DNA from: Alphaproteobacteria bacterium | Lineage (GTDB): Bacteria; Pseudomonadota; Alphaproteobacteria; CACIAM-22H2 | Direction of reading: 5' to 3' | NCBI GenBank assembly: GCA_017308135.1 | Contig: JAFKFM010000006.1 | Span: 65,724 to 129,723, forward strand | Length of the DNA: 64,000 bases | Part shown: positions 19,882 to 32,058 of the stretch, one piece after another | How the letters are laid out: the number at the start of each line of letters is the position of its first letter | Numbering within the stretch: the first letter of the stretch is position 1 | The notes under the pieces: model-generated | The model's input: the letters and a program-made list of their open reading frames with translations, nothing else | The model's database searches: none | Told to the model about the DNA's origin: nothing | Position numbers and translations under genes: made by a program

Positions 19882-20745
19882 ATGACCGAATACACGCCCC
19901 CGAAAGTGTGGACCTGGAACAAGAAGCCCGGCGCCAATGTCGCCGCCCTCAACCGGCCGATCGCGGGCGCGACGCACGACAAGGAATTGCCGGTCGGCAA
20001 GCATCCGCTCCAGCTTTATTCGCTGGGCACGCCCAATGGCGTGAAGGTCACGATCATGCTGGAGGAATTGCTCGCCGCCGGCCACAAGGGGGCCGAATAC
20101 GACGCGTGGCTGATCAAGATCGGCGAGGGCGATCAATTCGGCAGCGGATTCGTGGGCGTGAATCCGAATTCGAAGATCCCGGCTTTGCTCGACCGCAGCG
20201 GGCGCAAGCCGATCCGCGTGTTCGAATCGGGTTCGATCCTTTTCTATCTCGCCGAAAAGTTCGGCGCGTTTCTGCCCAAGGATGGCGCGGGCCGGACCGA
20301 GGCGATGAACTGGCTGTTCTGGCAGATGGGGAGTGCCCCGTATCTCGGCGGCGGGTTCGGCCATTTCTATATGTACGCGCCGACGAAGATCGAATACGCG
20401 ATCGATCGCTTCTCGATGGAAACCAAGCGCCAGCTCGACGTGCTCGACCGGCGCTTGGCGGAGACGCCCTATCTGGCGGGCGACGAATACACGATCGCCG
20501 ATATCGCGACCTTCCCGTGGTATGGCGGCCTCGCCAAGGGTTGGCAGTACGGCGACGCGGCGACGTTCCTGTCGACGCACGAATACAAGAACGTGCTGCG
20601 CTGGGCCGAGGCGATCTGGGCGCGCCCGCCGGTGAAACGCGGGCGCATGGTCAACCGCATGAGCGGCGACCCGGCCGAACAGCTGCGCGAACGCCACGAC
20701 GCGAGCGACTTCGACACGAAGACGCAGGACAAGATCGGGACGTGA
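19882..20745 (+). CDS. yghU: Glutathione S-transferase, YghU-type disulfide-bond oxidoreductase
   Basis: 287 aa. It has the YghU/nu-class extended N-terminus ([20 protein letters not shown]), then a thioredoxin-like GSH domain ([46 protein letters not shown]) and an all-helical C-terminal domain with [14 protein letters not shown]. Probable GSH-dependent disulfide reductase. Its last 21 codons reappear, diverged, at 21805-21867, which marks an insertion or rearrangement at its 3' end. Confidence 0.93.
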
Positions 20746-20808
20746 CGGATTTGGCGGCGGGGCGGGTGTGACGCCCTACACTCAGCGGAATAACGGTGGT
20801 GCTAGTCT

Positions 20809-20841
20809 CTCCGAGGGCAACAAAAATCGTTCCCCTCGGAG
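20809..20841. other. Hairpin in the yghU-islet gap
   Basis: Arms CTCCGAGGG and CCCTCGGAG with a 15-base loop, in the 170-bp gap after yghU. There is no T-run, so it is not a standard terminator. No gene is supported in 20746-20915. Confidence 0.4.
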
Positions 20842-20915
20842 TCCGCACTCGAAGGTATGAGCTCGTTCGGATATTCGTGGCGACAGGGGGTATGGGGACG
20901 CTGATTGAGTGGGCG

Positions 20916-21542
20916 TTACTGGCCAAACGATTTTTTGATGGCATCATTTATCTGATCGAGCATGTTTTGTGGAAACTCCGCCGAGTTCGCAAGGTCCAAC
21001 AGGGTCTTCTTGACGTTGCCCTCTACAACGAGAATCTCCCCAGCAAAAGCAGCCGCGAATCCGTTGGGAAGTGGATCGCTCTTAGAAAGAATATTTTCTA
21101 TTTTCTCCCTTTTATGTGCCAGCCCTTTGTAGCATTGCACGACCTGCCAAGCGTCGAATGGCCGTAAAAGTCCAACCTCCGAACGATTCGCATCGTAAAT
21201 CTCTGTTGGCAGAGACATTAACGGCAATAGGTTCGTTGAACGCGCGTTGGTGGAGTTGAGATCCCGCGCCATACAAAGTATTCGAACACGGCAATCATTC
21301 AACTCAGCCCAAATCGCCGCGGCGACGGCGCGACGTCGATTGGCGTAATCCAATTGGGAGACATCGACGGTCGCCTTTGCTTGTTCCCTAGCGGCATCAG
21401 CCTGCGCCATCGCACCATTGAAAGCTATCCGAGCTGCGATGATTGCGATGGTCGCCGCCAGCAGCGTGAAAAAACCTTGCCCCCAAGTCGCTAGCCCCTG
21501 ATGACTGTCGAGCCATTTCATCGCGGCGAGAACAGATTCCAT
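20916..21542 (-). CDS. Membrane-anchored protein of unknown function (accessory)
   Basis: 208 aa from MESVLAAMKW; the start is supported by GGTGGAG about eight bases upstream. One N-terminal transmembrane helix (GFFTLLAATIAIIAARIAFN) is followed by a charged coiled-coil-like segment (AQADAAREQAKATVD). A cytoplasmic helical domain comes next. This layout is common among small proteins of prophages and defence islands, but no family is recognised. Codon use is less GC-biased than the core neighbours, consistent with acquired DNA. Confidence 0.6.
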   Translation of the reverse strand: MESVLAAMKWLDSHQGLATWGQGFFTLLAATIAIIAARIAFNGAMAQADAAREQAKATVDVSQLDYANRRRAVAAAIWAELNDCRVRILCMARDLNSTNARSTNLLPLMSLPTEIYDANRSEVGLLRPFDAWQVVQCYKGLAHKREKIENILSKSDPLPNGFAAAFAGEILVVEGNVKKTLLDLANSAEFPQNMLDQINDAIKKSFGQ

Positions 21543-21561
21543 GGCGATAGCTCCACCTCGT

Positions 21562-21819
21562 TCAACCACTGGATGATGCCGCCGGGGTCGATGTTCCGCA
21601 AGGGCTCGCAGCTATAGCACGCGCGCTATCGATCTGATCGTCGACGACATACCGGTTAATCACCACATGTCGGCTCCAATAGCCAATTACATGTTGGGAT
21701 ACGAGGCGCTTATGGCTCTCTGGATATAGAAGAATAACAACTTGAAGAGTATCTGCTTGCACGCCGTTCGGAACCGACACTATACGTGCCAGGTAGTAGT
21801 CACACTGCGCGAACGCCAT
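21562..21819 (-). CDS. Possible small protein, low confidence
   Basis: 85 codons starting MAFAQCDYYLARIVSVPN and ending 20 bp before the membrane-protein start. No Shine-Dalgarno is visible. Its first codons are the antisense of the displaced yghU tail, so the start arose in a rearranged junction. It may be a real gene upstream of the membrane protein or an accidental frame. Confidence 0.3.
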   Translation of the reverse strand: MAFAQCDYYLARIVSVPNGVQADTLQVVILLYPESHKRLVSQHVIGYWSRHVVINRYVVDDQIDSARAIAASPCGTSTPAASSSG

Positions 21820-21867
21820 GATGCCGGCGACTTCGACACGAAGGCACAGGATAAGATTGGGAAGTAG
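21805..21867 (+). pseudogene. Displaced 3' tail of a yghU-like gene
   Basis: 21 in-frame codons reading LRERHDAGDFDTKAQDKIGK then stop, aligning without gaps to the last 21 codons of intact yghU (20683-20745). 52 of 63 bases match, and several of the differences are at third codon positions. The rest of the gene is absent. An intrinsic hairpin follows as after a real gene end, so this looks like the original or a paralogous yghU 3' end separated by about 1.06 kb of inserted DNA. Confidence 0.8.
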
Positions 21868-21872
21868 AAAAT

Positions 21873-21902
21873 TCGGGGGCACAAGATGCCCCCGAGGCTT
21901 TA
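21873..21902 (+). terminator. Intrinsic terminator after the yghU-like tail
   Basis: Arms TCGGGGGC (21873-21880) and GCCCCCGA (21888-21895), loop of seven, then a short T stretch. It lies six bases after the displaced yghU stop codon. Confidence 0.65.
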
Positions 21903-22006
21903 AATGGGCAAGAAAATCAAGCTATCCGGCGCCACTGCGCAGCGAAATACCGCATTTATTGATTTTAGTATGACATAGTAACCTTTATTAAGAGTTGCTG
22001 AGGGTG

Positions 22007-22387
22007 ATGTGGATGTTTGAAACGGTAACGTCGTGGCAGATCGGGTACATCGTCTTTGCCGGAGTCTTCGCGCTCATTCTTTTGCGCGCCGCCCTCGACC
22101 TTTTGGTGAAGATACTTGAGGTCTCGTTTATACTTATATTTGTGTGCGTCGTTGTTGGCGCCGTAACCGGTATTTACGATCGCATCTACGGTCCAATTCC
22201 GGCACTCGAGGGCATCGGGACCAAATGGATGGCCTTCATGATCGCGGCCATCATCTTGGTGACTTGCGTCATTACAATTCCGGCCGACGAGAATACGGCC
22301 AAGCGCGCCGCCGCCGCAAAAGAGCCGTTGCGTGACGTAAGTGCCAACACCAAAGCAGGCGATCCGCCGAAGACGGAATTTAAATAA
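22007..22387 (+). CDS. Small integral membrane protein (accessory)
   Basis: 126 aa beginning MWMFETVTSWQIG; an in-frame ATG two codons later is equally possible, and GAGGGTG lies just upstream. About three hydrophobic helices (IVFAGVFALILLRAALDLLV, SFILIFVCVVVGAVTGIY, AFMIAAIILVTCVITI) are followed by a charged tail rich in Lys and Ala. Not recognised. It sits alone between the displaced yghU tail and the convergent large HTH protein. Confidence 0.55.
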   Translation: MWMFETVTSWQIGYIVFAGVFALILLRAALDLLVKILEVSFILIFVCVVVGAVTGIYDRIYGPIPALEGIGTKWMAFMIAAIILVTCVITIPADENTAKRAAAAKEPLRDVSANTKAGDPPKTEFK

Positions 22388-22755
22388 ATGAGCGCCACGC
22401 GCGAAAGCGCATGGCGTGCCGGAGATGAAGAAAATGAGAACTCTTGGCGGATCGTGGCCCCGGTTCACAGTGCGTGTAAATGCAAATAACCTTATTGAAA
22501 CATCTGTATTTAGCCGTGACGCCATGCTTCTGGCGTAAGTTGCGACGCCTCACGTATGTGGGAAAGCGCTAATGGGAAATTTGATCTTCAATCTTTCTCT
22601 CACACATGCGCCTAGCAACGAGGCTGACGGGGAAATCCAATACGCCCCCACAATAATGTTTCGTGACTCCAGAAACTAAGCGACTTTAGCGATGAACATG
22701 GAAAATTGTTTCTAATTCACATGCTCCCGCTTTGGAGCCTCAGCATCCAGGTTGG
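22388..22755. other. 368-bp stretch without a gene
   Basis: AT-richer than the core genome. A hairpin with arms CGCCACGCGC and GCGCATGGCG around GAAA (one mismatch, 22392-22415) lies just after the small membrane-protein stop and could end transcription, though no T-run follows. Nothing else is recognised. Confidence 0.4.
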
Positions 22756-25700
22756 CTACCGTCGCAGCCGTCGCCGAATGCCGGCGTCAGCATCTTCCCG
22801 TTCCGCTTCCTTTTCATAGGTTTTTGCGATGGCCATAAGAAGAGACGACGACAAGTGCGGATGGGTATAACGCAGAGCCTCTCCCCATCCGCGATACTTC
22901 GCAGCAAGTTCGCGTTCTTGTGCACCTCCCTCGCCGCGCACAACTACCCCCCGCAAATTGTAGATACCGGTATGCGCGCCGTCGAAGACCTCGCGTGAGT
23001 TTAGCTCCTCCATTTCGTCACGAACTGTCTCGCATGGCCAAACGCCATCTGCGCCAACGGGTGCATGCGCGAAAAGTCCGCCGAGATTTATATCGCAAAT
23101 TTCAAGTCGATCGATTTCGGCACTGGCCGTTCGAACAGCTTGTACCCACGCAGCTAGACTCGCTTTCGCTTTAGCGCCTTCTTCGCGGAGCCCAGGAATG
23201 CGCCGCATGCCCTCCAGCAGCCGATAGCCACGTTCCGCCAAATCTGACCGGCCGTCCGGAGTTCGGAATGATGGCGGATCCTCACCACCGCTCTTGCGTT
23301 TGTACGCCCATGCCAGGGCTTCAACCCATAGCAAAGGGTTCATCTCGATATAACGCTCGAGATTTCCGATGTGGCTCTCGTTGTTCCCCAGAACGTCCGC
23401 GAGCACGTCGATATAAGCGAACTCTAGCTTGGCCTTGTCCTCCAGGCTTACGCCGGGATCGTTACTCAGCCGCTCGAATACTTCTTTGACATCATGCGAG
23501 TCCAGCCTGACATCTTGATCGTTATCGTCGCCGACTTGTGCGAGCTCGTTGAGTAGATCGACGATCAAATCATGACGCAGGTTCTTGATCGCGAGCCGCA
23601 CAGTCGTGAAGGCGGCTTTCGGGCGCTTTGCCTTCAGAAATCGCTCTACGGTCTCATCAACCAATTCCCGGGGTTCGATCACGTAGCTTGGTTGGACGTC
23701 CATCCAGTACAATTTTTGCGATTCCGGCTTCAAACGATCAACCATTCGCCAGGTCGATTGATCGAAAGGCGCGAGCAGTAAGAGGCGCGCTTTCTCCGAA
23801 TCGTCGAGTGCCGCAAGCGGGCCGTCAAGCAAAGCCTCACGATCTTCCAGCTTCAACGCGACCAGCGCCCCCCTCAGGATAGCCGTGCGTTCCGGCGAGA
23901 TGTGGCTCGAACCCAGTCGCATTGCTTCAATAATGAAGGAGGCGATATCGCCGTTGGCGAGTACATCGCGAACCATATGCCATCCAATCTGGCCCTGGGC
24001 GTTTCCCTGGCTCGCCAGATTGAAGACGCCCGTAAAACCTTGCGTGCGATAGACTTCGCTGAGGGCATCCGCTCGCATGCGATCTATGCGTTTTTGCCGT
24101 TCCTGATAGTCTGTCGCTTCGCCCCAAATTTCGTCTGCTGACTCTTCGATCCATGACGCCTTGAAGAGCCATGCATGCTTCTGGACAAGGTCGGCGGGCT
24201 CAAGCTCCGCGTAGACCTTGCGGGCTGAGTCGGTGAGTGTCGCTCGATGAATCCCTGGATTCTGACGTTCTGCTCGTCGCGAGAGTACGGTGACGCGTAT
24301 CTTCTCGCGTACTTGCGCGACATCAGCATCCGATTTGCCGCTCTTACGCCATGTGTCGATGAGATTCCATACGCGCTGCTGAAGTTCGTTGTCCAACGCA
24401 TGCAACCGCTCAACAAGATCGCAAACCATGTCGACAGAATAGGTGGCCCGCGAAAGTGCCAACTCCACCATCGCGACCTGAAACTTCAAACTAGGGCCCC
24501 TCAACTTAAAGGGCTCCCCGTATCCATAACCATCGGGGCGCCATTTGGGCTTGTGCGTGTAGTGCCCAACACTATGACCGCCACCATCGAACTGATCGAC
24601 ACAGATTGTCCAAGCGACGGCCGGGTGCTTCTCGAATAGCTTCTTGATTGCCAAGACCCTTCTGTCGTGTTCGACGGCGGTTTGTGGCATCCACGAGCGG
24701 AAGATCGACTTCAGGGACGAGATGGGTTTGTTGGCAAGATTGTCGTTGAGCTCGATTTCCGCAAGGCGTGCAAGGATCAGGACCGAGCGGAGAAAGGTCT
24801 GAGGGCTCCATGCAAGCCCTTCGAGCGCCCAGAGCAGGCCGGGCCGTGACGAGTTAGCGCCAAAGAATGTCGTGTCGGCCGGACGAATGAGCCCGAGAAC
24901 GGCAGGCGTGTCGCCACGAAGATCGTCCTCGAGAATCTGAAGGAAGGTTTCAGGTGCCGCTTCGGCGTAAGTGCGTAGATCGTGGCTATTGGCTTCGAGT
25001 TTGTGCGTGGTGAGCGGCAGCAGCAGTTCCTTGACAAGTCGTGAGACCTCCATTTCTCCATCGAAGCCGATTCTGCGGAAAAGTTCTTTTCCATGAATCG
25101 CCAGAAGAACCAGCGTTTCTGCGACGCCATTTCGAACCGCGGTTGAGAAGGCACGTCGTTTTCCCCTCATGCCGGCCAACCATCGTTCCTTTTCGGGCAG
25201 TTCGAGCGACGGATCATCTTCGCCGAGGATCGTCCGCGCGAACCCGAGAAACCGCCGAAGGTCGGGAAGTGTGACGGCTTGAGCGATGGCAAACAGCGAA
25301 TCGAGTTTGGAAACTACGCCTCTGTAGTCACCGATTGACCACAAAGGCGCATCTTCTAGTTGTACTAATTTTCCGATCCGAATCTCCATCTCGTCGTACG
25401 CTATTTCGTCACCCGCGATTCCGGTTACCGCCGTCTTATCGGCTTCGTTCTCCGCATTCCACGCGCCGAGCAAAACGAATGGGACAAGCCATCGAGCTTT
25501 GTCGGAATCCGCAGCCCAATTAGGCGTGCGAATGGTGGGCACGTTCGAGAGTCGGCGACGGAGTACAGTCAAGGAATGCCCCGATTCCTCGCCAAGGCGT
25601 TCAATCTGGTCACGGTCGAGGCTCATAGCTTCGAGACCTTTTCGAAAGGCCTCGTGGGTCAAGGTTTCAAGTGTGACGTCGGGGGCGTCGTTCAGCGCAT

Positions 25701-26856
25701 TCTTCGGATAGACCACGATCGCTCGGAGCTTCGAAGCGAACGGCCCGAGTTCTCGCTCGACCTCGCGCGTATGCACAATCGCGATGAAATCTTGGTTGCC
25801 GTGCGCAAGTTTTGTCAGACTGCCCGGCCTGTCGAAGACGAGTACGCGATCCCGCTTGCCCACCAAGTCCGGCTCGGAGAATGTTTGGGCGATCGCCGCA
25901 AGAGCTTCGTCTTTCGAGTCCGCAGATACAATGAGCGGCTTCTCAGCGGGTACCGCCAGCATGCTCACGATCTTCGGTTTGACGACGCTCTTGGCCGTGT
26001 CGAACAGCTCTGCTGCGAGATGGGGGTTTGCGGCATTAGTCCAATCGGACCAACAGCGATCGAGCGACCGAACCCCTTCCGAGGGGCGCTGTGTTTCGCC
26101 GGCGAACCAAGCCTGCGCGGCCGGCGATTGTTCGAGCCATTGTTCCAGATCGCTTGCGTCATAGGCTCGGACGTCCCTCCATTGTTTGGTCGCTCGCATC
26201 GCCACTACCCAGTCGATCTTTCCCGCCCATCGCCGTGGGGTCACGAAGATGAAGGTGGTCTCGGCACGCTCGGCGACGTTCGGAGTTCCTTTGACGCTTT
26301 TCCCGAAGTCATCGTCGGCTTTCTTTTTGATCTTCTCTGTGACGCCAAACTCCCAGCCGGTCTTGCCTTCCGGAATCCAAGGTGTCCCGGCTGACGTCTC
26401 TGTGAAGCCGTCCCAGCCGGGCCGCTCGGCGTCGTCGTTGCCGGGAAAATCAACGCGTTTGAGTGCCAAGCCCGTCGAATTCACCAGTGTTCGCAAAAAG
26501 ACCGAGAGACGAATGCGTGCGGAGATGTTATCTGCGGCCCAATCCTGGATTTCATTCGCTTTAATATCCAGGAAGGGTGGGACATAGGCCTTCGTTTCCG
26601 CGGAAGCCTTGGTGGGCGAACTCGAGGCCGCGTCATACTCGGCTTGCATTCGCAACAGTCCAGCAGCCGGATAGCCAAACACAAGCTCGATCCGCGTGGC
26701 GATGTTTTCTGTCGCGGATACGCGGCCATTCAAGAAGTTAGAGACGCCAGGACGGCTGATACCTAATAGCTCTGCCGCCTTCTTGACCGAGATGCGTTGC
26801 GGTCGGAGATAGGTTTCACGGACATATTGGCCAGGATGCTTCGGTTTTTTCGGCAT
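22756..26856 (-). CDS. HigA-like HTH fused to nuclease-like region and long helical body (candidate defence protein)
   Basis: 1366 aa. Residues 1-75 resemble a HigA/VapI XRE domain (KHPGQYVRETYLRPQRISVK; ISRPGVSNFLNGR as recognition helix). Residues about 100-255 show GWDG (D149), then WEFG (E169) with a Lys cluster at 176-179. TTFIFVTPRRW and YDASDLEQWLE follow; this suggests a PD-(D/E)XK-like nuclease, though the canonical final Lys is displaced. Residues about 270-400 alternate beta and alpha like a STAND/AAA core but lack a Walker A. The remaining ~950 residues are helical, repeat-like. The ATG at 26856 is 24 bases from the predicted transcription start. It is divergent from fic with shared operators. 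Function is inferred, not shown. Confidence 0.75.
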   Translation of the reverse strand: MPKKPKHPGQYVRETYLRPQRISVKKAAELLGISRPGVSNFLNGRVSATENIATRIELVFGYPAAGLLRMQAEYDAASSSPTKASAETKAYVPPFLDIKANEIQDWAADNISARIRLSVFLRTLVNSTGLALKRVDFPGNDDAERPGWDGFTETSAGTPWIPEGKTGWEFGVTEKIKKKADDDFGKSVKGTPNVAERAETTFIFVTPRRWAGKIDWVVAMRATKQWRDVRAYDASDLEQWLEQSPAAQAWFAGETQRPSEGVRSLDRCWSDWTNAANPHLAAELFDTAKSVVKPKIVSMLAVPAEKPLIVSADSKDEALAAIAQTFSEPDLVGKRDRVLVFDRPGSLTKLAHGNQDFIAIVHTREVERELGPFASKLRAIVVYPKNALNDAPDVTLETLTHEAFRKGLEAMSLDRDQIERLGEESGHSLTVLRRRLSNVPTIRTPNWAADSDKARWLVPFVLLGAWNAENEADKTAVTGIAGDEIAYDEMEIRIGKLVQLEDAPLWSIGDYRGVVSKLDSLFAIAQAVTLPDLRRFLGFARTILGEDDPSLELPEKERWLAGMRGKRRAFSTAVRNGVAETLVLLAIHGKELFRRIGFDGEMEVSRLVKELLLPLTTHKLEANSHDLRTYAEAAPETFLQILEDDLRGDTPAVLGLIRPADTTFFGANSSRPGLLWALEGLAWSPQTFLRSVLILARLAEIELNDNLANKPISSLKSIFRSWMPQTAVEHDRRVLAIKKLFEKHPAVAWTICVDQFDGGGHSVGHYTHKPKWRPDGYGYGEPFKLRGPSLKFQVAMVELALSRATYSVDMVCDLVERLHALDNELQQRVWNLIDTWRKSGKSDADVAQVREKIRVTVLSRRAERQNPGIHRATLTDSARKVYAELEPADLVQKHAWLFKASWIEESADEIWGEATDYQERQKRIDRMRADALSEVYRTQGFTGVFNLASQGNAQGQIGWHMVRDVLANGDIASFIIEAMRLGSSHISPERTAILRGALVALKLEDREALLDGPLAALDDSEKARLLLLAPFDQSTWRMVDRLKPESQKLYWMDVQPSYVIEPRELVDETVERFLKAKRPKAAFTTVRLAIKNLRHDLIVDLLNELAQVGDDNDQDVRLDSHDVKEVFERLSNDPGVSLEDKAKLEFAYIDVLADVLGNNESHIGNLERYIEMNPLLWVEALAWAYKRKSGGEDPPSFRTPDGRSDLAERGYRLLEGMRRIPGLREEGAKAKASLAAWVQAVRTASAEIDRLEICDINLGGLFAHAPVGADGVWPCETVRDEMEELNSREVFDGAHTGIYNLRGVVVRGEGGAQERELAAKYRGWGEALRYTHPHLSSSLLMAIAKTYEKEAEREDADAGIRRRLRR

Positions 26857-26886
26857 ATTCAGCGATCTTTGTTGTTGCAAGGTAAA

Positions 26887-26915
26887 ATTATAGTGTGTTA
26901 GGCTACGCCTTACAA
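26887..26915 (-). promoter_or_regulatory. Promoter of the HTH megaprotein with embedded operator
   Basis: On the minus strand, TTGTAA (26910-26915) is followed after exactly 17 bases by TATAAT (26887-26892). Transcription would start near 26880. An inverted repeat with arms TGTTAGGC and GCCTTACA (26896-26914, spacer 3, one mismatch) covers the -35 box and most of the spacer, so a bound dimer would block RNA polymerase. The encoded HTH domain is the obvious candidate repressor. Confidence 0.65.
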
Positions 26916-26941
26916 TATGAGTTTGCGGTGAATGCGGCGCC

Positions 26942-26968
26942 TAATCAACGCAATTTCTGCGTCGATTA
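26942..26968. promoter_or_regulatory. Operator 1 upstream of the fic promoter
   Basis: 27-bp inverted repeat: arms TAATCAACGC and GCGTCGATTA, 7-base spacer, one mismatch. It ends three bases before the predicted -35 box of fic. Same arm sequence and spacer length as operator 2, with centres 55 bp apart. Confidence 0.65.
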
Positions 26969-26971
26969 CTA

Positions 26972-27000
26972 TTGAGCTATGCGTAGAATGTCGCAATTAT
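26972..27000 (+). promoter_or_regulatory. Predicted fic promoter
   Basis: TTGAGC (26972-26977), 17-base spacer, AATTAT (26995-27000). Transcription would start near 27007, giving a very short leader before the ATG at 27023. It is bracketed by the two operators. Confidence 0.5.
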
Positions 27001-27023
27001 CGACGCGAAAGGTGCGTCGATTA
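26997..27023. promoter_or_regulatory. Operator 2 overlapping the fic -10 box, start site and start codon
   Basis: 27-bp inverted repeat: arms TTATCGACGC and GCGTCGATTA, 7-base spacer, one mismatch. The final A is the first base of the fic ATG. Occupancy would block transcription start. Confidence 0.65.
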
Positions 27024-28126
27024 TGCCTTACATCCATGAACTCCAAGAGTGGCCCCACTTCCGCTGGGATGTGGCAGGCATTGCTGCGCGTCTGGGCGAC
27101 GTTCGTCATGCGCAGGGGAAATTGTCGGGGCGCATGGAGAATCTCGGCTTCACACTGCGCGACGAGGCCGTACTCCGAACCCTGACCGACGACGTGGTGA
27201 AGTCGAGCGAGATTGAAGGGGAGAAGCTCGACACGGATCAAGTTCGTTCGTCCATCGCGCATCGTCTTGGCATGGACATCGGCGGTCTTCCTGCAGCCGA
27301 TCGAGATATCGAAGGTGTCGTCGAGATGATGCTCGACGCAACGCAGAACTACGGGGCGCCCCTGACCACCGAGCGGCTCTTCGATTGGCATGCGGCATTG
27401 TTCCCGACCGGCCGGAGCGGGATGAGAAAGATCATTGTCGGCGCTTGGCGCAACGACAAAGAAGGGCCGATGCAAGTGGTCTCGGGCCCGATTGGCCGCG
27501 AGCGTATCCATTTCGAGGGGCCTCCCGCGGAGACGCTGCGTTCCGCAATGGATGTGTTTCTCGCTTGGTTCAATGCGCCACCCGACGTCGATCCGGTCGT
27601 TAAGGCCGGCCTCGCTCATCTGTGGTTCGTGACGATCCATCCCTTCGAGGATGGGAATGGTCGTATCGCGCGTGCGATCGCCGACATGGCGTTGGCGCGC
27701 TCCGAGAACAGCCCTCGACGCTTCTACAGTATGTCTAGCCGGATCAGAATTGAACGAACGGCCTACTACGATATCCTCGAGCAGACGCAAAAAGGCGACC
27801 TTGATTGTACCGAGTGGCTGACATGGTTCTTAACTTGCCTGGACCATGCGATCGCCGGTGCGGAGGGAACGCTCGCGGGCATCTTCGAACGACACGCGTT
27901 TTGGGAGCGGCACAAAACTTCGAGCTTGAACGAGCGCCAACGCATTCTGGTGGATCGTTTGCTACAGGGGTACGAAGGCAAACTCACGACAAAAAAGGCC
28001 GCGATCCATACGAAGACATCACACGATACGGCACTCCGTGACATCGACGATCTGGTCAAGCGCGGAATCTTGCAAAAAAATCCAGGCGGCGGCCGCAGCG
28101 TTAGTTACTCGCTAGTTAGTACGTAA
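27023..28126 (+). CDS. Fic-family AMP transferase with N-terminal DUF4172 domain
   Basis: 367 aa. The N-terminal DUF4172 region starts MPYIHELQEWPHFRWD. An inhibitory helix carries SSEIEG at residues 61-66, the (S/T)xxxE(G/N) motif of N-terminally autoinhibited Fic proteins. The Fic core has the full catalytic motif HPFEDGNGRIAR from residue 206, so AMPylation (or similar nucleotidyl transfer) should be intact. A winged-helix-like C-terminus (KAAIHTKTSHDTALRDIDDL) follows, probably DNA- or target-binding. Divergent from the HTH megaprotein with shared operators; probably part of the same accessory module. Confidence 0.9.
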   Translation: MPYIHELQEWPHFRWDVAGIAARLGDVRHAQGKLSGRMENLGFTLRDEAVLRTLTDDVVKSSEIEGEKLDTDQVRSSIAHRLGMDIGGLPAADRDIEGVVEMMLDATQNYGAPLTTERLFDWHAALFPTGRSGMRKIIVGAWRNDKEGPMQVVSGPIGRERIHFEGPPAETLRSAMDVFLAWFNAPPDVDPVVKAGLAHLWFVTIHPFEDGNGRIARAIADMALARSENSPRRFYSMSSRIRIERTAYYDILEQTQKGDLDCTEWLTWFLTCLDHAIAGAEGTLAGIFERHAFWERHKTSSLNERQRILVDRLLQGYEGKLTTKKAAIHTKTSHDTALRDIDDLVKRGILQKNPGGGRSVSYSLVST

Positions 28127-28516
28127 CTCCAAAAATTTTAAGTGAAAGCAGACGCGGCTAAATTGCGCCCCATAATCCGAATGAGGCCAGTCTCAGTGGA
28201 TATGAAATCAGGAATAGTTTAGTGATAATTATTAATGGCCTTTGATTGCTGAGACTTAAAATTGAATCCGAGGATGACTGCTTGATGCTCAAACTCGCGC
28301 TCGAACAAGTTCAAGCCGCGTTACTTCCCCACGATTTGTAACACGGGGGGCTCAAAATACACGAACGCCAGATGCCAGTTCCAGCCACAACCCGCAAAGG
28401 CCAAGTCACGGTGCGGGGCCTTCGGCCCACACCTAGCCGCGGAGCGCATGGCGAGCCCTTCGGTCTTGAGCCGAGGCGGGGTCAAGGCTGGCGAAGCCAC
28501 CGCGCGAAGCGCGGCT

Positions 28517-28545
28517 CGGTCTTGACGCCGACTCGGCCAAGACCG
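28517..28545. other. Nested perfect hairpin, candidate oriT/dso
   Basis: Outer arms CGGTCTTG and CAAGACCG enclose an inner GCCGA-C-TCGGC stem, giving an almost fully paired 29-base cruciform about 190 bp upstream of the Rep gene. Extrudable hairpins of this kind are typical nicking or initiator-binding sites of rolling-circle systems. Confidence 0.4.
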
Positions 28546-28671
28546 CCCTTCGAGCCATGCCGCTTCGCGGCGATATCGGAAAAATAGGTCAGTAAGCGCG
28601 TCTATTTATCTCGTTGAGATTCAAAGATTCCCGAAAAAATCTACATGTCGCGAATTTTCCTGGAATCGCCA

Positions 28672-28685
28672 ACGTAACGTTACGT
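28672..28685. promoter_or_regulatory. Palindromic operator site A
   Basis: Perfect 14-bp palindrome ACGTAACGTTACGT, 52 bp before the Rep start. The same core recurs twice between Rep and the recombinase (30040-30095). Confidence 0.6.
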
Positions 28686-28737
28686 ATACGCACCGCGCCG
28701 GTTTTCGAGTCCGGGCTATGCCGTCTCAGCGATTCGC

Positions 28738-29838
28738 ATGGATCGCGGAAAGGAACGGCTCGGCATGGAAATTCCCCGGCTTTTGGCCCAAGGCCTCGAT
28801 AGCCTGTACGTCTCGTTTTGGCTCGACGTGGCTTGCGGCGATCTCGACTTCGACGATCTCGCTTTCCGCAAGGAACAGCTCCGGCAATCACGGAATGTCG
28901 GTTTCGCGGAAGTACGGCTCGGGCGGGAACACTTCGCGCTCAAGCCTTTCGGCCGTCACCCCTATCCGTTCGTTCTCGCGAACGATGCTTTCGAATTGCG
29001 GCTTGGCGAACATCTGCGCCCAGCCTGCTATGTGCAGTTCGCCAGCAAGGGGCTTTGGCTTTCAGGTCTCGAGGGGACGATATCCCGGTTTCGTGAGTGG
29101 GCCGCATCGTGCCGTCTGCTTGAAACCCGACCCGAGCAAGTCTCGCGCGCCGATTGGGCGTTCGACTATCATTTGCCTGTGGCGGACTTTACGGCTGGGA
29201 ATTTCGTCACACGTGCGACCAAGAGCGCCGTTTGGGCCGAACACGGCGCCAATCAGTCTTTCCAAATCGGCAAAGGCGACACGGTTATCCGCGTTTACGA
29301 TAAAATCGCGGAGATCGAGCAACAAAGTGCAAAGGCATGGCTCTTCGAAATCTGGGGACGGCAAACCGAAGTTTGGCGCGTCGAATTCCAGGTACGCCGG
29401 GAGCGCTTAGCCCTTGGAGGGATCGGTACGCTGGCTTCGCTGCATGACGAGGGCGGAGACCTGCTGCGGGAGCTCGCAACCAAGCACACTTCCCTACGAC
29501 AGCCTTCAACGGATGCCAATCGATCCCGCTGGCCCCTCCACCCGCTTTGGCTAGCCGTACTACGGGACATCGATCGGCTGCCCCAGACCGGCTTGATCCG
29601 CGCGATCGATCCGGGGGGATCGATCGAGTGGCGGCTCTTCCAGCAGGCGAAGTCGCTCTACGGCTCGCTGAAGGGCCTCGGGGCGCTTTTGAGCATCCGG
29701 GGCGGGAAACCCGCTCCAAAGAGTCTGGCGGGCATCCTAGGCGATTTGCCGGGCATTTTAGCGCGGCACCATAGTGAGCCCGAATGGCACGCCGACCTTG
29801 AGCGGCGCATGACCGGATACCGGCTCGGCCAATGGTGA
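28738..29838 (+). CDS. Rep_trans-type replication initiator / relaxase
   Basis: 366 aa. RADWAFDYHLP, DTVIRVYDKIAEIEQQ and EVWRVEFQVRRERL in order match the replication-initiation-factor (Rep_trans) family, whose plasmid and ICE members nick DNA with an active-site Tyr. VIRVYDK is a good candidate for the conserved RIYDK-like strand. Likely role: rolling-circle replication or mobilisation of this island. An in-frame ATG at 28765 is an alternative start. A GC-rich hairpin region and palindrome A precede it, and a small gene overlaps its stop. Confidence 0.72.
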   Translation: MDRGKERLGMEIPRLLAQGLDSLYVSFWLDVACGDLDFDDLAFRKEQLRQSRNVGFAEVRLGREHFALKPFGRHPYPFVLANDAFELRLGEHLRPACYVQFASKGLWLSGLEGTISRFREWAASCRLLETRPEQVSRADWAFDYHLPVADFTAGNFVTRATKSAVWAEHGANQSFQIGKGDTVIRVYDKIAEIEQQSAKAWLFEIWGRQTEVWRVEFQVRRERLALGGIGTLASLHDEGGDLLRELATKHTSLRQPSTDANRSRWPLHPLWLAVLRDIDRLPQTGLIRAIDPGGSIEWRLFQQAKSLYGSLKGLGALLSIRGGKPAPKSLAGILGDLPGILARHHSEPEWHADLERRMTGYRLGQW

Positions 29839-30017
29839 ACCGTCATGTCATCGAGTTGGTGAATCTCCGGCTCACGCGATTGTTGACGGTCGCGGAAGCC
29901 GCGATGGCTCCCGAACAATTCCGCGCTTTCCGGAAGATCGCGCTAGATGAATTCGGATGGGCGGGATTGCGCAAGGACCTGGACGATGCGGGAAGGGCTG
30001 GATCGGGACGAAATTGA
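29832..30017 (+). CDS. Small protein coupled to the Rep gene
   Basis: 61 aa (MVNRHVIELVNLRLTRLLTV). Helical, with Leu, Arg and Ala rich N-terminus and a Gly/Arg tail. The start overlaps the Rep stop by seven bases (ATGGTGA), implying coupled translation. Not recognised; possibly an accessory factor for Rep. Confidence 0.5.
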   Translation: MVNRHVIELVNLRLTRLLTVAEAAMAPEQFRAFRKIALDEFGWAGLRKDLDDAGRAGSGRN

Positions 30018-30039
30018 GCGCTCGAACGCGAGGCCGCAC

Positions 30040-30095
30040 ACGTAACGTTAACGTTACGTAGGCCAAGGCGCTCGCCAACGTAACGTTACGTTGGC
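30040..30095. promoter_or_regulatory. Palindromic operator sites B and C
   Basis: Site B is the perfect 20-bp palindrome ACGTAACGTTAACGTTACGT (30040-30059). Site C (30074-30095) is a perfect 22-bp palindrome with arms GCCAACGTAAC and GTTACGTTGGC. Both share half-sites with site A upstream of Rep. They precede the small ORF and recombinase, suggesting common control of the replication and integration modules. Confidence 0.65.
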
Positions 30096-30166
30096 TGACG
30101 GTTCGGGGCGCGACACGGAAAGGCAAGGGCCGGAAAACTTCGGCAAAGAAAGGAGGTTCATATGCT

Positions 30167-30385
30167 TTGCGATCAAATCGATCCAGCGGCACGGCCGTGC
30201 CCAAGGGAATTTCCCAGCCTGCCAAGCCGTTTGCTTCACGCGGAAAACGGGCTGCCGTTCCGACGCTGAAGATACTGGATGACCTACCGGCATTTCTGCC
30301 AATCTGCGATGCCGAGGCCGCGCTCTTGGAAGCGAATTGCCATGACCTGCTTGCCGCGATACTCGACGCGTCGGACAGCCGATAG
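30167..30385 (+). CDS. Possible small protein upstream of the recombinase
   Basis: 72 codons from a TTG at 30167, ten bases after a strong AAGGAGG. The C-terminal part (TLKILDDLPAFLPICDAEAA, then LLEANCHDLLAAILD) looks like a genuine amphipathic helical protein. A competing ATG at 30162 in another frame gives only 36 codons. It ends 9 bp before the recombinase start, so it is probably cotranscribed. Not recognised. Confidence 0.4.
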   Translation: MRSNRSSGTAVPKGISQPAKPFASRGKRAAVPTLKILDDLPAFLPICDAEAALLEANCHDLLAAILDASDSR

Positions 30386-30394
30386 GCGGGGCCA

Positions 30395-32023
30395 ATGACA
30401 CTACGTGCCGCGCTCTATCTTCGCGTTTCGACAGCCCGACAGGCCGAGCAAGATTTATCAATACCGGATCAGCGGCGGCAGGCAGAAGCGTTCTGCAGCC
30501 GCCAAGGCTGGTCCGTCGCGGCGGAGTACGAAGAACCAGGCGCCAGTGCCACGGACGACAAGCGGCCAGAGTTTCAGCGCATGATCGAGGACGCGAAGAA
30601 GTCGCCGCGCCCGTTCGATGTCGTGGTTGTGCATAGTTTCTCGCGGTTCTTTCGAGATGCGTTCCAGTCGGAACTCTACATCCGGACGCTTCGCAAATTC
30701 GGCGTAACGCTTCGGTCAATCACTCAGGAAATCGGTGACGATCCCTCGGGCAACATGGTGCGCCAGGTCGTAGCCATGTTTGACGAACACTCGAGCCGGG
30801 AGAATGCGAAGCACACGCTGCGAGGCATGCAAGAGAACGCGCGCCAAGGATTTTGGAATGGCTCGATGCCGCCTTTCGGCTATCGCACCTACGAAGCCGA
30901 GCGGCGCGGCGAAAAGATCAAAAAACGGCTGGAAATAGAACCGCGCGAGGCTGAGCTAGTCCGGCGGATATTCGCCCTGTATCTCGACGGCGAAGCGGGA
31001 AGCCCGCACGGGATCATCGCAATCGCGCATCGGCTTAATCGGTCGGGCGTTCGCTATCGCCAAGGCCGCGCGTTTTCGGCGGGGCTCATTCACAAAATCC
31101 TGACCCGAACGGCTTACAAGGGTGATCACTACTTCAACCGGACCGACTCCAAGACATTCGAACGCAAGCCCGAGTCGGCTTGGATACATTTTCCCGTTCC
31201 TGCGATCTTGGATGCGGCGCGCTTCGAAGCAGCACAGCACAAGCTAAGAGAAAGCAATCCGCGCGTTACGCCGCCGCGCGTGGTGAACGGCCCTACGCTG
31301 CTGACCGGCATTTTGCATTGCGCGGCGTGCGGCGGCGGAATGACCATGCGCACCGGGAAATCCGGCCAGTATCGTTACTACGCTTGTTCGGCAGCGATGC
31401 GTATGGGCAAAACCAAATGCGCCGGGCGCTCGGTGCCAATGGAACGTCTGGATAAGCTTGTCATCGATCACTTGTCGGAAAAGCTCTTTGCGCCGGATCG
31501 TTTGAATGCATTGCTTTCGGATCAGATCGCACGCGCCAAACGGAGCCGAACGACAAGCGAAGACAGAACGAAAGCACTACGCGCGGAAATAAGAGAAATC
31601 GAACGCGCGCAGTCTCGCCTCTACGAAGCTATTGAACGCGGGATCACATCGCTTGATGACGAAGCGCTCCGGAAGCGGCTCGGTGAGTTGAAAGCACGGC
31701 GCGAAGAGTGCCTACGGTTGGTCGCCGTAGCGTCGCATCGGGCAGGAGCGCCTGCGGCCGTGCTTTCGTCGGCCAGCATCGAAGCCTTCGGCCGCGCAAT
31801 CCGCGAGCGCCTCGCGAGCCCAAATGCGGCTTTTCGGAAAGCCTATATCCGGCTCTTTGTCGCTCGGATCGAACTCGACGAAACCGAAGTTCGGATGTTC
31901 GGCCCGAAAGACCGCTTACTCGAGGGGATCGAAAACCCGCCGAGCGACGAAAAACCGGCGGTGCCCGGCTTTATACGCGCGTGGCGTCCCCGAGAGGAAT
32001 CGAACCTCCGACCTACAGTTTAG
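30395..32023 (+). CDS. Large serine recombinase (site-specific integrase)
   Basis: 542 aa. Resolvase-type catalytic domain with nucleophile Ser12 in YLRVSTARQ, then VVVVHSFSRFFRD and the long E helix. A recombinase domain (residues about 160-260, GMPPFGY-like start) follows. The zinc-ribbon HCAACGGGMTMR with YYACSAAMRMGKTKCAG comes next, and a coiled coil near 385-440. The last 14 codons (RPREESNLRPTV end) are antisense to tRNA-Arg, so the gene's 3' end was made at the integration junction. It probably inserted and excises this island. Confidence 0.93.
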   Translation: MTLRAALYLRVSTARQAEQDLSIPDQRRQAEAFCSRQGWSVAAEYEEPGASATDDKRPEFQRMIEDAKKSPRPFDVVVVHSFSRFFRDAFQSELYIRTLRKFGVTLRSITQEIGDDPSGNMVRQVVAMFDEHSSRENAKHTLRGMQENARQGFWNGSMPPFGYRTYEAERRGEKIKKRLEIEPREAELVRRIFALYLDGEAGSPHGIIAIAHRLNRSGVRYRQGRAFSAGLIHKILTRTAYKGDHYFNRTDSKTFERKPESAWIHFPVPAILDAARFEAAQHKLRESNPRVTPPRVVNGPTLLTGILHCAACGGGMTMRTGKSGQYRYYACSAAMRMGKTKCAGRSVPMERLDKLVIDHLSEKLFAPDRLNALLSDQIARAKRSRTTSEDRTKALRAEIREIERAQSRLYEAIERGITSLDDEALRKRLGELKARREECLRLVAVASHRAGAPAAVLSSASIEAFGRAIRERLASPNAAFRKAYIRLFVARIELDETEVRMFGPKDRLLEGIENPPSDEKPAVPGFIRAWRPREESNLRPTV

Positions 32024-32058
32024 GAAACTGCCGCTCTATCCTGCTGAGCTACGGGGAC
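31982..32058 (-). tRNA. tRNA-Arg (anticodon CCU)
   Basis: On the minus strand: acceptor GTCCCCG pairs with CGGGGAC, D-arm GCTC...GAGC, anticodon loop TTCCTAA giving CCU, T-arm with GGTTCGATTCC, discriminator G and an encoded CCA. The 3' end faces the island, and 42 bases overlap the recombinase reading frame. Confidence 0.95.

Follow-up and report, generated by a model that had tools for sequence, protein, structure and literature searches.

Candidate operator palindromes before the Rep and recombinase genes of a tRNA-integrated island in an alphaproteobacterium

The island, its genes and related modules

The window, that is, the whole 64,000-nucleotide stretch of DNA analysed here, contains a probable integrated island in which Rep, two small open reading frames (ORF1 and ORF2) and a large serine recombinase all lie on one strand and end at a tRNA-Arg gene. 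The features that matter for what follows are these:

20778–31981: integrated island, probable extent; left edge set by loss of synteny, right edge by the 3' end of tRNA-Arg
28327–28362, plus strand: GC-rich hairpin CCCCACGATTTGTAACACGGGGGGCTCAAAATACAC, predicted oriT/dso nick site
28436–28571, plus strand: long hairpin of 136 nt between the nic hairpin and Rep, candidate single-strand origin
28672–28685: palindrome 1, ACGTAACGTTACGT, 14 bp, perfect, centre 86 bp 5' of the Rep start codon; proposed operator or Rep binding site
28765–29838, plus strand: Rep, predicted Rep_trans-fold rolling-circle initiator/MOBT-like relaxase
29832–30017, plus strand: ORF1, 61 aa, overlapping the end of Rep
30040–30059: palindrome 2, ACGTAACGTTAACGTTACGT, 20 bp, perfect, two overlapping half-site pairs, centre at −117 from ORF2
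30074–30095: palindrome 3, GCCAACGTAACGTTACGTTGGC, 22 bp, perfect, centre at −82 from ORF2
30114–30164, plus strand: leader ACGGAAAGGCAAGGGCCGGAA...AAAGGAGGTTCATATG with a strong Shine–Dalgarno sequence, preceding ORF2
30167–30385, plus strand: ORF2, small protein with a TTG start, directly 5' of the recombinase
30395–32023, plus strand: large serine recombinase (Pfam Resolvase, Recombinase and Zn_ribbon_recom)
31982–32058, minus strand: tRNA-Arg(CCT), the integration target, into which the recombinase gene runs

The extent of about 11 kb is deduced from a genus member, G009 (locus L106), whose synteny with the window breaks off after 20777 and resumes at the tRNA at 31982, and from a drop in G+C from ~66% to 52–60% between these positions. 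Since G009 has 2.5 kb of other genes between the synteny ends, it cannot serve as a clean empty site. The search for a flanking direct repeat, or for a left attachment site of the tRNA end, gave no convincing candidate, and a 23-nt partial match to that end at 22406, with 4 mismatches, is only suggestive as a left attachment site. An integrase, a relaxase-like gene and an oriT-like site, which, along with a lack of mating-pair genes, characterize integrative mobilizable elements (IMEs), are present, mobility being a prediction from sequence; no T4SS domain was detected in the larger island ORFs that were scanned. Near the left edge, a GST-like gene has its 3' end doubled (intact at 20682–20743, with a fragment inside the island at 21804–21865, similar over 62 bp), and it looks as if an insertion of ~1.1 kb had displaced the original end. 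A 1374-aa protein encoded at 22756–26880 on the minus strand carries an XRE-type HTH at its N-terminus and matches PD-Lambda-4_A weakly.

With Rep and its alignment as queries, a search of 1366 genomes (some counted repeatedly) and of viral contigs yielded 12 additional modules in which the genes follow each other as Rep, (ORF1), ORF2 and serine recombinase, in Pseudomonadota and in viral-contig collections (L118 and L119); no close Rep was found in the plasmid and phage collections. Identity to the window Rep is 72% in L010, 50% in L074, 49% in L118 and 44% in L075, and the recombinases of the other modules show 42–71% identity. The recombinase gene ends in a tRNA gene in the window and L011 (Arg), L053 and L073 (Glu) and L079 (Asn). 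In the window, the antisense strand of tRNA-Arg (31982–32023) encodes the recombinase C-terminus REESNLRPTV, so that the end of the protein depends on the integration site. A decayed module, with a truncated Rep and a recombinase bearing a large internal deletion, lies at a tRNA-Arg(TCT) in L116:6600–8100.

ORF1 is 63% identical in L010, occurs also in L073, L076–L079 and, by inspection, L119, and is missing from L011, L074 and L075; in modules without ORF1, Rep and the recombinase look like one operon. A Pfam search of the small ORFs of the island, ORF1 included, gave no match. A small ORF stands at the place of ORF2 in 13/13 aligned modules, with an identity to the window copy of only 11–49%, and the AlphaFold2 (AF2) model of ORF2 consists of a single confident C-terminal helix, its fold uninformative and no DNA-binding fold visible. 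The leader before ORF2 is kept in 8 modules whatever the reading frame, with GGGC(C/A)GGAA invariant and a strong Shine–Dalgarno sequence in several members. Stop-codon read-through from ORF1 into ORF2, which are in frame in L077–L079, was discarded, since L076 does not preserve the frame.

Rep and the conserved nick-like hairpin

Rep most likely starts at 28765 and not at 28738, judging from an AAAGGA Shine–Dalgarno sequence and a start kept in L010. Its AF2 model (pLDDT 85) has the Rep_trans catalytic fold: the best Foldseek matches are the rolling-circle initiators 4cij, 4cwe and 4cwc, and VIA-align gave Z scores of 12.6 (4cij, 209 residues), 12.1 (4cwe) and 11.4 (4cwc), with unrelated entries at ~7. 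The Pfam profile Rep_trans (PF02486) scored 20.3 bits against Rep (E 4.6e-4), short of its gathering cut-off of 29.6, and a profile search among PDB sequences returned 4cij only, as a weak match. The tyrosine within RxY[DN]K is invariant across 11 Reps and is a candidate counterpart of RepD Y191. The model lacks an N-terminal HTH, its first sheet strand beginning at residue 5, and the C-terminal 100 residues are helical and vary more than the core.

The conserved origin-like site of the modules is the hairpin, and not the palindromes. The sequence (CCCC..)GTAACACGGGGGG..(A)ATACA is present 0.3–1.2 kb before Rep in 11/11 modules with enough upstream sequence, and GTAACACGGGGGG is invariant in all of them although Rep identity drops to 35%; the site contains 13 consecutive invariant bases, and its C-rich arm is degenerate in some of the modules. 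In ICEBs1, a conserved GC-rich hairpin carries the published MOBT nick site, with CT'AA, in its loop (PMC9371924), and plasmids of the pT181 type are nicked at a conserved stem-loop (PMC4797284). Because of its likeness to both, 28327–28362 is predicted to be an oriT/dso, and we infer by analogy that the nick falls within this hairpin. The loop reads GTAACA, with GTAA in all 11 close members, so that the CT'AA nick core is not matched, and a pattern search of viral contigs with the nic motif returned no match. The palindrome finding of the first-pass annotation had left out this hairpin, in which the replication/transfer DNA of the module is at its most conserved. In distant alphaproteobacterial relatives of Rep (L056:4380 and L057:7388), a CCCCC..CTAACAGGGGG hairpin with a CTAA core (CTAACA) stands next to Rep.

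The 136-nt hairpin between the nic hairpin and Rep is strongly structured as single-stranded DNA (z = −6.45, no shuffle equally stable) and is common to the window and L010, with ~87% identity over the aligned stretch and one compensatory G-C/T-A change seen by eye; an Rfam search with it gave no match. A 52-bp part is 80% identical to non-coding DNA of pYQ39, a 2.3-kb plasmid with a gene annotated 'protein rep', and 85–87% identical to Bradyrhizobium plasmids. These plasmid matches lend weak support to the single-strand-origin candidate.

Sequence, rarity and recurrence of the palindromes

The first-pass annotation had described three perfect palindromes of a single motif family, the second extended by overlapping half-sites. 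A sequence check confirmed all three, the family is borne out by a common core AACGTTACGT and by the half-sites ACGTAAC/GTTACGT, and the extension is visible as the two overlapping half-site pairs at 30040–30059. No other perfect palindrome of the window reaches the length of palindrome 3 (22-mer) or palindrome 2 (20-mer), and ACGTAACGTTACGT with up to 2 mismatches has 2 matches there, both exact, versus 0.04 expected. Against dinucleotide shuffles of the two intergenic stretches, the half-sites are in excess: the 149 bp that follow ORF1 contain 4 (shuffle mean 0.08, reached by 0/5000), and the 638 bp that precede Rep contain 2 (reached by 3/5000). Lone half-sites at 28121–28127, at the end of the Fic gene, and at 2189–2195 are probably due to chance.

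The 10-bp core has 6 matches in the 5.2-Mb genome, which are both strands of the three palindromes and no others, where ~3 would be expected from base composition (our own estimate) and a reversed control pattern gave 4; the clustering of all copies within 1.4 kb is more telling than their absence elsewhere. The random scatter over the chromosome that the first-pass annotation had counted against its own proposal was thus not found. This distribution also bears on the possibility that the palindromes are operators of a host regulator, which their operator-like form would suit, as would the fact that the motif-bearing modules with a known host are all from Alphaproteobacteria. With the core confined to the island, only two further sites in its own genome at up to 2 mismatches, and near matches not enriched over the reversed control in 11 genomes of the genus, element-less members included, we regard a host regulator as highly improbable. 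An exact 16-mer, AACGTAACGTTACGTT, occurs in 20 IMG/VR contigs, which is about chance level by a rough size estimate.

Across the modules, the arrangement recurs in part. L010 keeps it, with TAACGTTACGTATA before Rep and an inverted repeat plus CGTAACGTTACG before ORF2; the inverted repeat, at the place of palindrome 2, is a perfect 16-bp stem with a 4-nt loop and the same half-sites. The shorter ACGTAACGT precedes Rep in L074 and L075, and L118 has two copies of it in the stretch from Rep to the recombinase. Found in 5/13 modules, it is one of the 9-mers that the control regions share most widely, and 14/15 of its copies lie within the 200 bp before Rep or in the Rep–recombinase interval. The proposal that related islands carry the motif thus stood for these modules and failed for L053, L073, L076–L079 and L119, from which it is absent. 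L011 has a different palindrome, TTCCCTACGTAGGGAA, at the same −86 position before Rep, and L053 has, by eye, four CCTATATAGG-like sites between Rep and the recombinase.

Modules without the motif tend to carry an extra gene between the hairpin and Rep. The extra genes of L053 and L073 are 34% identical, with an N-terminus that is MerR-like by eye, and those of L076–L079 are common to these modules and RHH-like by eye; those tested had no match in Pfam or NCBIfam. This pattern, noticed post hoc in few lineages, suggests that the palindrome and the extra genes may fulfil one and the same function. In this family the palindromes form a second layer, specific to certain lineages, that the module as such does not need.

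A purely structural role, as cruciforms, attenuators or insulators between units, would accord with the perfect stem of L010 and with the folding of 30030–30100 in the window, which is better than that of shuffles (z −3.9). The site before Rep folds no better than shuffles (z 0), however, the modules share sequence and not symmetry alone, and no terminator-like site was recognised at the palindromes; we therefore consider action as DNA or RNA structure, instead of as protein sites, very improbable. Sigma-70 promoter and terminator scans at both palindrome places remained at chance level, with no recognisable promoter.

Proposed shared control of Rep and recombinase

The positions of the sites relative to the genes are the main argument for an operator function. 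Measured to putative start codons supported by Shine–Dalgarno sequences, and in few independent cases, the palindrome centre lies at −86 from Rep in the window, L010 (core TAACGTTA) and L011, at −78 in L075 (a related palindrome) and at −133 in L074, and the nearest centre to ORF2 lies at −82 in the window and −89 in L010 (CGTAACGTTACG). The placement before Rep and before the small gene–recombinase unit, as initially annotated, therefore holds at −82 to −89 bp from both. A shared operator would be expected to stand at nearly equal distances from two different start codons, as seen here.

We put at about even the chance that the palindromes are paired operators bound by an island-encoded protein, most likely Rep, and controlling both units. 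An island-encoded DNA-binding protein would occupy all three palindromes of this tRNA-integrated mobilizable island, palindrome 1 controlling the Rep(–ORF1) unit and palindromes 2 and 3 the ORF2–recombinase unit, and initiation of replication or transfer would be switched together with excision. If the binder is Rep itself, its action at its own promoter would amount to autoregulation, and its action at the recombinase promoter would tie excision to the level of Rep. Common control of Rep and recombinase is plausible from the sequence comparisons, its support having grown through island specificity, recurrence and spacing; binding, the identity of the binder and the direction of regulation are predictions.

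The candidates for the binder are limited because the window and L010 have only Rep, ORF1, ORF2 and the recombinase in common, and ORF1 drops out because it is missing from L011, L074 and L075; the binder may thus be Rep, ORF2, the serine recombinase or a host protein. Rep is favoured by precedent: in Rep_trans initiators, a conserved hairpin for nicking goes together with a palindrome specific to the element, and the island has both a conserved hairpin and a lineage-specific palindrome. In pT181 plasmids these are the nick stem-loop ICRII and the plasmid-specific palindrome ICRIII, the latter recognised by Rep through its helical C-terminal domain (PMC4797284); the window Rep likewise ends in helices, in a part more variable than the core. 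For the MOBT relaxase RelSt3, the inverted repeat that it binds is at some distance from the nic site (PMC9371924). By this analogy, a Rep or relaxase binding site as in pT181 or ICESt3 fits the palindromes as well as the site of a separate regulator.

The same precedent of element-specific palindromes read by Rep_trans proteins, together with the nick-like hairpin and the Rep fold, could mean that the palindromes are counterparts of pT181 ICRIII or ICESt3 IR2 and serve recognition by Rep for origin function only, with no role in transcription. Palindromes 2 and 3 are found beyond the end of Rep, at a distance of 1.7 kb from the hairpin, and the spacing to start codons is near constant whereas the hairpin-to-site distance varies, which makes an origin-only function rather unlikely. 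Against the shared operator stand the failure of the scans to recognise a promoter at either place, the modules that lack the motif, the position at −133 in L074, the distance of ~330 bp between palindrome and nic hairpin, compared with 23 bp in pT181 and 68 bp in ICESt3, and the ORF1-less modules, in which a second site is unnecessary because Rep and the recombinase look like one operon.

That ORF2 always precedes the recombinase, with two of the three sites just before the pair, would also suit sites for excision accessory proteins, bound by ORF2 as a recombination directionality factor or by the recombinase. The site before Rep, however, is separated from the recombinase by 1.7 kb and stands apart from the tRNA junction, a site likewise precedes Rep in five modules that bear the motif or a counterpart, and the ORF2 model lacks a DNA-binding fold, so that we find an excision role quite improbable.

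Compared with known systems, the island resembles the MOBT oriT regions of ICESt3, Tn916 and ICEBs1 in its Rep_trans-family protein, a GC-rich nick hairpin upstream of the gene and a separate inverted-repeat site (PMC9371924), and differs in its GTAACA loop in place of CT'AA in 11 close members, in a Rep model without the N-terminal HTH present in most ICE members, in its Pseudomonadota host and in the remoteness of its candidate binding site from the hairpin. It shares with pT181/pC221 Rep the fold (4cwc, 4cwe and 4cij), a conserved nick stem-loop with a palindrome of element-specific sequence and a helical C-terminal region, whereas it is an integrated island and not a plasmid, and its palindrome lies far from the hairpin (~330 bp, against ~23 bp from the nick in a pT181-type dso) and is repeated before the recombinase unit. 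Streptococcal IMEs with Rep_trans likewise combine an integrase, a Rep_trans protein, an oriT-like hairpin and cargo, and some target a tRNA 3' end; the island differs from them in its tRNA-targeting serine recombinase, Gram-negative hosts and defence-like cargo. The tRNA-targeting IMEs listed in a review table have tyrosine integrases (PMC5704250).

We tentatively propose, as a possible though doubtful generalization, that these modules represent widespread, apparently undescribed Pseudomonadota islands with a tRNA-targeting serine recombinase, a MOBT-like initiator and a near-invariant nick hairpin, in which a lineage-specific palindrome, placed at a near-fixed distance, lets the initiator regulate itself and couple replication to excision. 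In other lineages, the palindrome would be replaced by a dedicated DNA-binding gene (by eye, MerR-like or RHH-like) located between the nick site and Rep. If true, a defence-carrying Gram-negative island would coordinate excision with rolling-circle initiation by simple wiring, the 13-nt invariant nick-like motif could be used for finding such islands, and MOBT-like mobilization, studied mostly in Firmicutes, would extend to tRNA islands of Pseudomonadota.

Such tRNA islands carry Fic, CRISPR-Cas9 and other candidate defence genes. Cargo adjacent to Rep resembles known or candidate defence genes in three modules, namely SoFic (window), PDC-M60 (L010) and Cas9 (L011). The Fic protein of the window (27023–28126) matches PADLOC SoFic (E 2.8e-46) and is defence-like cargo directly before the origin region. 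The Cas9-like gene of L011 (1537–4875) lies upstream of the module origin and has a partial relative in L075, and a repeated ~28-bp sequence beside the nic hairpin of L011 resembles a CRISPR array.
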